From contig REDR01000055.1 of assembly GCA_007693385.1 (NCBI GenBank), forward strand, positions 62,001 to 126,000: a DNA stretch of 64,000 bases. The letters are read 5' to 3'. Made by a program: the position numbers and the translations under genes. The stretch is from Anaerolineaceae bacterium. Its GTDB lineage: Bacteria > Chloroflexota > Anaerolineae > Aggregatilineales > Phototrophicaceae. Positions 52,836 to 60,744 of this stretch are shown here, piece after piece; positions within the stretch are counted from its first letter, which is position 1; every line of letters begins with the position of its first letter. The notes under the pieces are model-generated. The model was not told the origin of the DNA, made no database searches, and worked only from the letters and a program-made list of their open reading frames with translations.

Positions 52836-52864
52836 TTGACAAGCGCTGGCTCTGCGGTTATATT
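52836..52864 (+). promoter_or_regulatory. promoter of the lysine (homocitrate) operon
   Basis: TTGACA (52836-52841), 17-bp spacer, TATATT (52859-52864): near-consensus. Expected +1 about 52871, 18 nt before the first ATG of leader peptide 1. A second TATAAT at 52883-52888 lacks a matching -35. Confidence 0.85.
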
Positions 52865-52888
52865 CTGCCCCATTGATGCCGGTATAAT

Positions 52889-52951
52889 ATGGTAAAAATA
52901 ATGGTAATGTCGATCAGCAAGCAGGCCAAGAAGCACACCCCTGAACGCTAA
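52889..52951 (+). CDS. lysine operon leader peptide 1 (up to 20 residues)
   Basis: Three in-frame ATGs (52889, 52901, 52907) open a frame ending at TAA 52949-52951. From the last ATG it reads M-S-I-S-K-Q-A-K-K-H-T-P-E-R; from the first it gains another Lys. Three AAG codons stand in five positions. No good ribosome-binding site is seen, so the start is uncertain. The sequence K-x-x-K-K-H-x-P is repeated in leader peptide 2, and the nucleotides around AAGAAGCACA also match, indicating duplication. Confidence 0.75.
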   Translation: MVKIMVMSISKQAKKHTPER

Positions 52952-53026
52952 GTTCGGGCTTTTTGCTTGCGCGGATCACATCATCCCACTAGCGATAGCA
53001 ACAGCGCCCGAAACGGGCGCTTTTTT
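52940..53026 (+). terminator. lysine attenuator 1 with alternative pairings
   Basis: Terminator: GCGCCCG (53004-53010) and CGGGCGC (53014-53020), then six T (53021-53026). Antiterminator: TTCGGGC (52953-52959), starting 2 nt after the leader 1 stop codon, is a perfect complement of GCCCGAA (53006-53012) in the terminator 5' arm. A protector hairpin CCTGAAC/GTTCGGG (52940-52946 with 52952-52958, one G-U pair) spans the stop codon and sequesters the antiterminator strand. Ribosomes stalled on the AAG codons would cover the first arm and favour read-through. Confidence 0.83.
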
Positions 53027-53046
53027 GTTTTGAGGAGAGAGACAAC

Positions 53047-53097
53047 ATGACTTTGCACGACATCAAGAAGACCAAGAAGCACATCCCACCGGACTAA
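53047..53097 (+). CDS. lysine operon leader peptide 2 (16 residues)
   Basis: ATG 53047, TAA 53095-53097, product M-T-L-H-D-I-K-K-T-K-K-H-I-P-P-D. Four AAG codons lie in five positions. A strong ribosome-binding site GAGGAG (53032-53037) is well spaced, so translation is very likely. The frame begins 20 bp after terminator 1, so it is only transcribed when attenuator 1 is passed. Confidence 0.85.
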   Translation: MTLHDIKKTKKHIPPD

Positions 53098-53182
53098 CCC
53101 TCTGGATTTTTGCGCTTCTCCGGTCAAGCTATAGGCCAGAACGCACAACCGCCGCCAGATGGGTTCATCTGGCGGTTTTTTT
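53098..53182 (+). terminator. lysine attenuator 2 with alternative pairing
   Basis: Terminator: CCGCCAGATG (53152-53161) and CATCTGGCGG (53166-53175), 10-bp stem, GGTT loop, then seven T (53176-53182). Antiterminator: CCCTCTGG (53098-53105), directly after the leader 2 stop codon, pairs with CCAGATGGG (53155-53163) as 5 + 3 bp with one bulged T. A second CCAGA at 53136-53140 could pair with the same strand as a protector. A ribosome on the stop codon would cover the antiterminator strand. AAGGAG of the next gene follows at about 53200. Confidence 0.8.
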
Positions 53183-53214
53183 ATCCCGATCAACTTTTTA
53201 AGGAGTAACACACG

Positions 53215-54348
53215 ATGCCATTTGAGCATTACAGCATCATCGAAAGCACATTGAGAGAAGGCGAACAATTCAGCACCGCCACGTTTTCAACCGCCGACAA
53301 ACAACAAATCGCCGCCATGCTGGACGATTTCGGCGTGGAGATGATCGAGATGACATCGCCCTGCGCTTCGCCACAGAGCGAGTCCGACATTCGCGCCGTC
53401 GTCGATATGGGATTGAATGCGCGTATCCTCACCCACATCCGCTGTCACCGTGATGACGCTCTGCGGGCGCTGGATACCGGCGTACATGGCGTCGATGTCG
53501 TCATCGGCACATCGCCACAACTGATGCAACACAGTCACGGCAAAAGCATCCGGCAGATCATCGACACCGCATGGGATGTTTTGAGCTTCATCCGCGAACA
53601 AAGGCCGGATATCATCCTGCGCTTCAGCACCGAAGACTCCTTCCGTAGCCGCGAATCCGACCTGTTGCGCGTGTATCTGGCCGTCGCCGATATGGGGCTG
53701 GTAGATCGGTTGGGCGTGGCCGATACCGTCGGCGTCGCCTCCCCCGATCAAGTGGAGCGACTGGTCGGGCAGTTGGTACGCCTGACCGGATTAGATGTCG
53801 AGTTTCACGGTCACAATGATAGCGGATGCGCTATCGCTAATGCGTGCGCCGCGCTCGTCGGTGGCGCGACCCACATCGACACATCCGTTCTCGGCATCGG
53901 AGAGCGCAACGGCATCACACCACTGGGGGGGCTGGTGGCGCGGCTGTACACGCTGAACCGCGCCTACGTGGAAAAATATCATCTGCCGTTATTGCCAGAA
54001 CTCGATGCACTGATCGCGTCGCTATGTCAAATACAGATTCCGTTCAATAATTACATCACCGGCGCCAGCGCATTCATCCACAAAGCCGGTATCCACGCTA
54101 AAGCGGTGCTGGCCGATCCGACGACATACGAAGCGATCAATCCGGCTGATTTCGGGATGCGGCGCGAAATCAGCATCGGCCACCGCCTGACCGGATGGAA
54201 TGCGGTACGTGACCGCGCCGACCAGCTCGGCCTGACGATTGACGACGATAACCTGCGACAGATCACGCGGCGCATCAAAGCGCAGGCTGATAACGCGCCG
54301 CTCGGTCTGGATGAAGTCGATCATCTGCTACGGGAGAATGCGCGATGA
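53215..54348 (+). CDS. homocitrate synthase (LysS/LYS20 type)
   Basis: A 377-residue DRE-TIM metallolyase that condenses 2-oxoglutarate with acetyl-CoA, first step of the alpha-aminoadipate lysine route. Family segments are [49 protein letters not shown]-like [16 protein letters not shown], metal ligands in [15 protein letters not shown] and [14 protein letters not shown]. The REGEQF and THI-C motifs distinguish homocitrate synthases from LeuA and CimA, both also in this window; similarity to the Thermus enzyme is extensive from memory. The C-terminal LeuA regulatory domain is absent. NifV is a less likely alternative as no nif gene is near. Confidence 0.9.
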
Positions 54349-55601
54349 CCGGCTATACATTTGCGGAGAAAGCATTGGGGCGGGCGGCAGGTGGCCTGAC
54401 GGTACGCGCCGGTGAGGTGGTTGATGTGACGCCGGATTTAGTATTCAGCCACGATAATACCGCCGCCATCCGGCGCATCTTTCAGGACGAAATCGGCGCG
54501 ACGACGATCAAGCATCCGGAGCGCGTCGCGTTCACGCTCGATCATGCCGTGCCCGCGCCGACCACCCGCCACGCGCAAAATCACGCTGAGATACGCGAAT
54601 GGGTGCGCCAGCAGAACGTCGCGCACTTCTTTGAAGTCGGGCGCGGCATCTGTCATCAGGTCATCAGTGAAGAGGGGTTGATACTGCCCGGCGAACTGAT
54701 CTTCGGCTCGGATAGCCACACGACGCATTTCGGCTGGCTGGGCGCGTTCGGGATGGCCGTCGGGCGTACTGAGATGGCGGCGCTGTGGTTGACCGGCCAG
54801 ATATGGCTTCAAGTACCCCGCGCCCTGCGAATCTGGCTGGATGGTCGCCCGCAACCGTACACCACCGCCAAAGATGTCGCCCTGCATATACTGGGCAGAT
54901 ACGGCGCGGACGGCGGGCAATATCGCAGTGTGGAATTCGCGGGGAATGCTATCACCCATTTATCGCTATCGGAACGCGCCGTGCTGACCAACATGATGGC
55001 CGAATTCGGCGCGATGAACGCCTACATGCCGCCTGATGATGCGGTGTTCGACTATCTTCAGCCGCATCAAGAACGCGATTATACGCCGCTATATCCCGAC
55101 GCCGACGCCGTTTACGACGAGACGCACCACATTGACATCAGCGCCCTGACGCCGCAGATCGCCCGCCCCCATCGCCCCGATAACGTGGTCGCGCTCGACG
55201 AAGTGGCCGGGACACCGGTACAGCAGGCTTTCATCGGCACATGCACCAACGGACGCTATGAGGATTTATGCGCGGCGGCGGAAATCCTGCGCGGGCAACG
55301 CGCCCGCATCCGCTTGATCGTCATTCCCGCCAGTTCGCACGTGTTGGAGCAAGCCGCCCGTTCCGGCGTGCTAGCTGATCTGATCTCAGCCGGTGCCACC
55401 ATCAGCACGCCCGGATGTGGTCCGTGCATGGGCAATCACATGGGCGTACCCGCGCCGGATGAAGCCACCATCAGCACCGGCAATCGCAACTTTCGCGGGC
55501 GCATGGGCACCCGCGAAGCCGATATTTACCTGTCGAATCCGTACGTTGTGGCCGCCAGCGCCATCACCGGACGCATCACCGATCCACAGGAGGTACTGTA
55601 A
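54345..55601 (+). CDS. homoaconitase large subunit (LysT-like)
   Basis: A 418-residue aconitase-family large subunit. Seen are [33 protein letters not shown]-like [33 protein letters not shown], and the [4Fe-4S] Cys in [14 protein letters not shown] and [15 protein letters not shown]. At about 418 residues it belongs to the short archaeal/Thermus-type LeuC/LysT group, unlike the 477-residue LeuC at 18 kb. Being sandwiched between homocitrate synthase (4-bp overlap) and a matching small subunit (1-bp overlap) argues for homoaconitate as substrate. Confidence 0.88.
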
Positions 55602-56095
55602 TGACCACGACCACGCATCGCGCATGGGTTTATGGCGATAACGTCAATACCGATGTCATTTTTCCGGGCAAATACACGTACACCGTGCGCGAGCCGGAGC
55701 AGATCGCCCGCCATGCGCTTGAGGACTTAGACGCCGATTTCGCATCAAATGTACAATCCGGCGATGTGATCGTCGCCGGACGCAATTGGGGCTGTGGCAG
55801 TAGCCGCGAGCAAGCCGTCACCGCGTTGAAATATTGCGGCGTGCGCGTCATCATCGCGCAGGCGTTTAGCGGGCTATATTTTCGTAATTGCATCAATCAG
55901 GGGATTCACCCCATTCTGTGCCCACCCGACTTCAACAAATCGATCAAGACCGGCGACACTGTTCTGATTGACTATGCGAAGGGTGTAATCAGCGCGAACG
56001 GCGAGACGTTCAACATCCCGCCGCTATCGCCGACAGTGCGCCATATCTTATCTGCTGGCGGACTGGTCGCTATGCTCAAAGCGCGATCCGGTTAA
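55601..56095 (+). CDS. homoaconitase small subunit (LysU-like)
   Basis: A 164-residue swivel-domain subunit: YGDNVNTDVIFPGKYTYTV, GDVIVAGRNWGCGSSREQAV, AQAFSGLYFRNCINQGIHPI. The short length and PGKYTYT loop, which contacts the substrate side chain in this family, separate it from LeuD (205 residues, PARFLK) at 17 kb. It completes the heterodimer with the preceding gene. The operon ends here; genes for homoisocitrate dehydrogenase, LysW and LysX-Z are not in this window. Confidence 0.88.
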   Translation: MTTTTHRAWVYGDNVNTDVIFPGKYTYTVREPEQIARHALEDLDADFASNVQSGDVIVAGRNWGCGSSREQAVTALKYCGVRVIIAQAFSGLYFRNCINQGIHPILCPPDFNKSIKTGDTVLIDYAKGVISANGETFNIPPLSPTVRHILSAGGLVAMLKARSG

Positions 56096-60681: not shown

Positions 60682-60717
60682 CGCCGCAGATCGCGCCGCA
60701 GATCGCGCCGCAGATCG
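60682..60717. repeat. 12-bp unit repeated three times in tandem (CGCCGCAGATCG)
   Basis: Three exact copies of CGCCGCAGATCG at 60682-60693, 60694-60705 and 60706-60717, followed by CGC of a fourth. They lie in the probable 5' untranslated region of the following kinase gene, after a TATAAT at 60660-60665. In frame with the kinase they would read as R-R-R-S repeats. Confidence 0.9.
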
Positions 60718-60744
60718 CGCCCTATAAACCCAGAGGTGGAATTT

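Follow-up and report, generated by a model that had tools for sequence, protein, structure and literature searches.

Candidate lysine-codon transcription attenuators in series upstream of homocitrate synthase in Anaerolineae

In the window, by which we mean the whole 64-kb stretch of DNA analysed here, the homocitrate synthase (HCS) gene is preceded by two lysine-rich leader peptides, each with its own predicted terminator. Sequence comparison makes it very probable that these are two transcription attenuators of the trp/his type in series, both reading the supply of Lys-tRNA. Textbooks usually depict leader-peptide attenuation as one device acting alone. Judged from sequence, the units show every trait of trp/his-type attenuators that can be tested at that level, and the doubled lysine form is apparently undescribed.

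Layout and proposed mechanism of the leader region

The region contains the following features, where strands 1 to 4 are those of the alternative hairpins 1:2, 2:3 (antiterminator) and 3:4 (terminator).

52836..52864, plus strand: sigma-70-like promoter, TTGACA-17-TATATT, predicted by consensus match alone (11 of 12 positions)
52889..52951, plus strand: leader peptide 1, MVKIMVMSISKQAKKHTPER and stop, which aligns with the SKKAKK leaders of relatives
52940..52958, plus strand: unit 1 hairpin 1:2, CCTGAAC gcTAA GTTCGGG, with the stop codon in its loop; this helix covaries in relatives
52953..52959, plus strand: unit 1 strand 2, TTCGGGC, the predicted 5' side of the antiterminator, from the 2:3 pairing of relatives and nascent folding
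53006..53012, plus strand: unit 1 strand 3, GCCCGAA, which pairs with strand 2 and is also in the 5' arm of terminator 1
53003..53027, plus strand: predicted terminator 1, AGCGCCCG AAA CGGGCGCT (hairpin 53003-53021), with a T run at 53021-53026
53032..53037, plus strand: Shine-Dalgarno sequence of leader 2, GAGGAG, a strong ribosome site by sequence
53047..53097, plus strand: leader peptide 2, MTLHDIKKTKKHIPPD and stop, from sequence and covariance-model matches
53089..53105, plus strand: unit 2 hairpin 1:2, CCGGA cTAACCC TCTGG, with the stop codon in its loop
53098..53105, plus strand: unit 2 strand 2, CCCTCTGG, from sequence; the helix covaries at the family level
53155..53163, plus strand: unit 2 strand 3, CCAGA-T-GGG, which can pair with strand 2 over 8 bp, with one bulge
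53151..53182, plus strand: predicted terminator 2, an 11-bp stem (hairpin 53151-53176) with a T run at 53176-53182 and family-level covariation
53215..54348, plus strand: HCS, the predicted regulated gene (TIGR02146, 424.8 bits against a cutoff of 413.55)
54345..55601, plus strand: large subunit of the homoaconitase/3-isopropylmalate dehydratase family, LysT-like (NF001614 and TIGR02086, above cutoff)
55601..56095, plus strand: homoaconitase-family small subunit, LysU-like (TIGR02087, above cutoff)

An earlier note on this DNA had listed a near-consensus promoter, two Lys-rich leaders and two terminators with HCS downstream, and this base-level description was borne out. So were its alternative pairings, a perfect 7-bp duplex in unit 1 (TTCGGGC at 52953-52959 with GCCCGAA at 53006-53012) and the bulged one in unit 2. 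The 1:2 hairpins with the stop codon in the loop were absent from that description and are present in each unit, so that both window units carry the complete strand set 1:2, 2:3 and 3:4. Leader ORF 1 ends in SISKQAKKHTPER before its stop; its start is uncertain, as in-frame ATGs occur at 52889, 52901 and 52907 and there is no clear Shine-Dalgarno sequence. Leader 2 is preceded by GAGGAGAGAG. By a stringent definition, no further intrinsic terminator was found on the plus strand of the 64 kb, and looser terminators numbered 7 in the 1-kb region compared with 1.0 ± 1.1 in shuffles.

With ample Lys-tRNA, the ribosome would reach the leader stop codon and cover strand 2; strand 3 would then pair with strand 4, and RNA polymerase would terminate. 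When Lys-tRNA is scarce, the ribosome would stall on pairs of AAG codons and mask strand 1, leaving strand 2 to capture strand 3 as an antiterminator, and transcription would go on. One transcript would be tested first at terminator 1 (about 53026) and again at terminator 2 (about 53182). We infer that the leaders are translated, that ribosomes stall within them and that termination takes place at both sites in vivo, with the two gates acting in series. Having two gates might multiply repression and widen the dynamic range.

A T-rich stretch follows strand 2 of unit 1 (52958-52968 in the window) and ends in GCTT in most relatives. Upstream of strand 3 lies GCGAA, with which the stretch can form a conserved inner segment of the antiterminator; it also gives hairpin 1:2 the look of a terminator. 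The sequence would allow the T run after hairpin 1:2 to serve as an extra terminator; since the stretch (TTTTTCGCTT) pairs with GCGAA in many relatives, we do not claim one.

Distribution, tandem arrangement and covariation among relatives

The window genome belongs to the Anaerolineae (Chloroflexota), and records related to it carry the titles Anaerolineae, Aggregatilineales or Phototrophicales. In most relatives, HCS lies within a lysX-lysY-lysZ-lysJ-hcs operon (gene names assigned from translations) and is not preceded by a separate leader. An initial look upstream of HCS in relatives was mostly empty because the gene is internal to the operon there. The few relatives with a stand-alone HCS operon have K-rich leaders, several of them in tandem.

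The covariance model R1 was built from the first units of five relatives, with the window excluded from training. In a whole-genome search, it matched in 78 of the 98 genomes of the window's family. Matches set aside as false were two in G034 and those at G015:C357, G036:C20:348949, G056:C12, G028:C200:1671 and G128. The 84 reviewed family loci stand directly before lysW (76) or directly before HCS (8), and none elsewhere; both are genes of the alpha-aminoadipate lysine pathway. The earlier note had proposed a covariance search upstream of HCS; the tandem order was found again across many genera, ahead of HCS as well as lysW, and beyond the family. Placement before HCS holds in the window; as a specificity of the element it does not, since the element is commonest before lysW. 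We therefore rejected the idea that the element belongs to HCS, lysW being the usual downstream gene.

The wider model R2 matched in 91 of the 154 genomes of the order. Its matches were also scattered over families in the class, with leaders before HCS (KKSKKQKPD and stop) or lysW (TKKGKKSK and further residues to the stop). A phylum sample outside the class gave no model matches, a weak absence given that the model and filters were tuned to the family. The window genome itself has exactly four model matches, which form two tandem pairs, one before HCS and one before lysW. The latter (G000 contig C10:95703-95983, or L163:604-884) lies directly upstream of lysW and encodes one peptide that ends in FSKKTKKAITRT before its stop and a second, MRQLTATKKAKKHSKHPIFSGLRCDF and stop.

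At about 36 of the 84 family loci, unit 1 is separated from the gene by another Lys leader that has a terminator too, and R2 revealed six more family tandems (G019, G030, G060, G045, G096 and G097). Leader 2 starts a median of 20 nt past the end of the unit 1 model in the family loci. As this gap leaves no room for a promoter, transcription of unit 2 by read-through of unit 1 is the simplest reading of the sequence. A single unit ('U1 only') is found in many relatives, including most genomes of genus g22. Tandems whose second Lys unit is of another kind occur elsewhere in the order (families f2, f4 and f7) and in the class (f42).

The earlier note had remarked that one of the two units looks like a duplicate of the other. 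Across the family this does not hold, as unit 2 is a distinct conserved type with a consensus peptide of about DSKKKQSKKPD-RSG and stop. The two types also differ in geometry: strand 2 comes after the stop codon in unit 1 and lies at or overlaps it in the family's unit 2, and the units may accordingly differ in set point. For the window's own lineage, duplication is possible, because window unit 2 scores closer to the unit-1 model (45.2 bits) than to the unit-2 model (29.7 bits).

At nine loci (L221, L222, L223, L224, L226, L229, L231, L233 and L235), which belong to other lineages, the pairing sequence of the second Lys leader is unrelated, GGCGAT with ATCGCC close to a GCGCCC terminator. The doubled design is thus kept there, and the sequence of the second unit has been replaced or has diverged beyond recognition.

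The earlier note had staked its reading in advance on compensatory changes in the alternative pairings of relatives, and these were seen in 2:3 of both units. In unit 1, the position adjoining the GGG core (-1) is CG in 40 cases, TA in 32 and TG in 9, with one mismatch; one position further out (-2), the pairs are CG (33), AT (20), TG (11), TA (6) and GC (5). In an alignment that was not fitted to this helix, 82.3% of cells were paired, compared with 73.9% after shuffling and at most 54% in slid controls. The 1:2 helix of unit 1 covaries as well. In unit 2, 90.7% of the 2:3 cells were paired, the covariation score was 0.224 against 0.147 in shuffles, and changes on both sides occurred at four pairs; the terminator (3:4) of this unit covaries independently. 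Cognate 2:3 duplexes reached -21.3 kcal/mol, compared with -17.4 kcal/mol for non-cognate ones, a value as low as the former occurring in 0 of 5000 permutations. Although the 2:3 pairing controls do not remove relatedness among the sequences, so many distinct pair types point to compensation having occurred repeatedly.

Modelled folding of the proposed switch and the status of the second window unit

We folded the nascent RNA up to the terminator loop with a ribosome mask at either the last Lys codon or the stop codon. With the ribosome at the last Lys codon, antiterminator 2:3 formed in 84 of 84 first units and in 94% of second units; at the stop codon it formed in 25% and 19%, respectively. 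The expected geometry, in which a stalled ribosome frees strand 2 and a ribosome at the stop codon covers it, was found in most units. In a few exceptional relatives (e.g. G004), the stop codon of leader 1 comes right after KKT, too early for the ribosome to cover strand 2.

At equilibrium, the mean terminator probability of full units with the ribosome at the stop codon was 0.95 for unit 1 and 0.98 for unit 2, and with the ribosome stalled it was 0.56 and 0.82. Window unit 1 behaved as a sharp switch, with a terminator probability of 0.01 in the stalled state and 0.97 at the stop codon. Window unit 2 gave 0.99 in both states and thus showed no equilibrium switch. According to this model, opening of window unit 2 needs 2:3 to form before strand 4 is made, that is, kinetic folding, and the unit may be leaky or mostly closed. 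The equilibrium result for unit 2 is the main weak point in the modelled case for both window units being adjustable.

One window unit alone might work as an attenuator, the other being a degenerate copy or a plain terminator. This explanation draws on the terminator of unit 2 outcompeting 2:3 at equilibrium, on its weak match to the unit-2 model and on the many relatives with a single unit. However, both window leaders keep their lysine pattern (KxxKK and KKxKK), a strong ribosome site precedes leader 2, and nascent folding forms 2:3 in both window units. The second unit is, moreover, independently conserved and covarying in relatives. We consider a single working unit unlikely and prefer two adjustable attenuators in series.

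Lysine codons and the signal probably read by the leaders

The earlier note had also made its case depend on conserved Lys codons. In the alignment of relatives, the four core positions of leader 1 hold Lys in 321 of 340 cells, and the unit 2 peptides are Lys-rich in about 36 loci. The regulatory Lys codons of leader 1 (84 loci) are AAG in 93% of cases, compared with 47% in the genes that follow them (p about 1e-48); in the genes of the window, the AAG share of Lys codons is 50%. The preference could come from the decoding tRNA or from avoidance of A runs, both of which are possible.

These data also bear on another reading, in which the peptides work not through Lys-tRNA supply but as proteins, or as arrest peptides whose specific sequence responds to a ligand in the exit tunnel, such as free lysine. 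Conservation of the SKKAKK motif is tighter than codon counting alone would require, which speaks for this reading. Yet the N-terminal parts vary freely, the unit 2 peptides differ in spacing at equal Lys content (KKKQSKK, KTKCSK and KKTKK), and a mechanism at the peptide level has no need of the AAG bias of the motif codons. Action through the peptide itself is distinctly improbable, and sensing of Lys-tRNA remains the preferred reading.

It is highly improbable that the two leaders read different signals, such as Lys and His or Pro. The window peptides contain KKHTP and KKHIP, in which KKH is followed closely by Pro; in relatives, however, the position after KK is T, N, P, C, Q or R, so that His is not conserved there and Lys alone is. 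We rejected His or Pro co-sensing on these grounds. A further alternative, that the ORFs arose by chance and the hairpins are just ordinary terminators between genes, could appeal to short ORFs being common, with many in this region. It has next to no probability and is already refuted by the comparative data: genome-wide, the model matches only in front of lysine genes, the Lys codons are conserved, and the pairings show compensatory changes.

Relation to known attenuators

The units share with the trp and his attenuators of enterobacteria a short ORF holding codons for the pathway product, the alternative hairpins 1:2, 2:3 and 3:4, and an intrinsic terminator before the first structural gene. 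They differ in that the codons are for lysine instead of Trp or His and that two units, each complete, follow one another. Unlike the enterobacterial attenuators, unit 2 of the family has strands 1 and 2 inside the last codons of the leader, where they adjoin or overlap the stop codon. Lysine leader-peptide attenuation is known from Thermus thermophilus, which likewise uses the LysW/alpha-aminoadipate pathway; there the leader is single.

An Rfam search of the window and ten relatives found no riboswitch or leader family, the only match being a tRNA elsewhere in the window. Our literature search, which covered few subscription journals, found no match for lysine leader-peptide attenuators in Chloroflexota or for tandem attenuators of the same amino acid. 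The earlier note had known of no tandem leader-peptide attenuator for lysine. For lysine none was matched, but mgtCBR of Salmonella is known to have tandem attenuators that respond to ATP and to proline, two different signals (mgtM/mgtP; PMC3641672). This is the closest described case: its 5' region carries two leader ORFs, and the choice of hairpin set by each governs elongation into the operon. Its stem-loops are unlike intrinsic terminators and it serves a virulence operon, whereas the lysine units have predicted intrinsic terminators, precede genes for biosynthesis of the sensed amino acid and both read that same amino acid. Tandem riboswitches are well known (reviewed in PMC9481103) and also repeat a sensor on one transcript, the sensor being an aptamer there and a translating ribosome in the lysine units. 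The ermB gene is induced through two leader peptides, ermBL and ermBL2 (PMC8274638); it shares two leader peptides before one gene, but its control is drug-driven translational attenuation and not transcription attenuation by amino-acid supply.

We slightly favour the broader view that these elements form an Anaerolineae-wide RNA family, in which two non-identical Lys attenuators in series on LysW/alpha-aminoadipate genes give a steeper or wider-range response than one would. Single and double versions occur naturally in this lineage ahead of the same genes, in dozens of genomes each, so that the benefit of a second attenuator for the same signal (gain, range, noise or kinetics) is directly testable. 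The findings bring lysine into amino-acid attenuation in a phylum whose regulation is sparsely documented; the models can be used to annotate lysine regulons in uncultured Chloroflexota.

Elsewhere in the window (16.3-21.0 kb, minus strand; G000:C81:78319-83048) lie two more HCS/isopropylmalate-synthase-like genes, which have 30% identity to HCS and no Lys leader match. Two divergent genes are separated by a 12-bp sequence in perfect tandem repetition (CGCCGCAGATCG, 3.3 copies, 60682-60721). Their mechanical ORFs both cross this repeat, so the true starts are probably further in.
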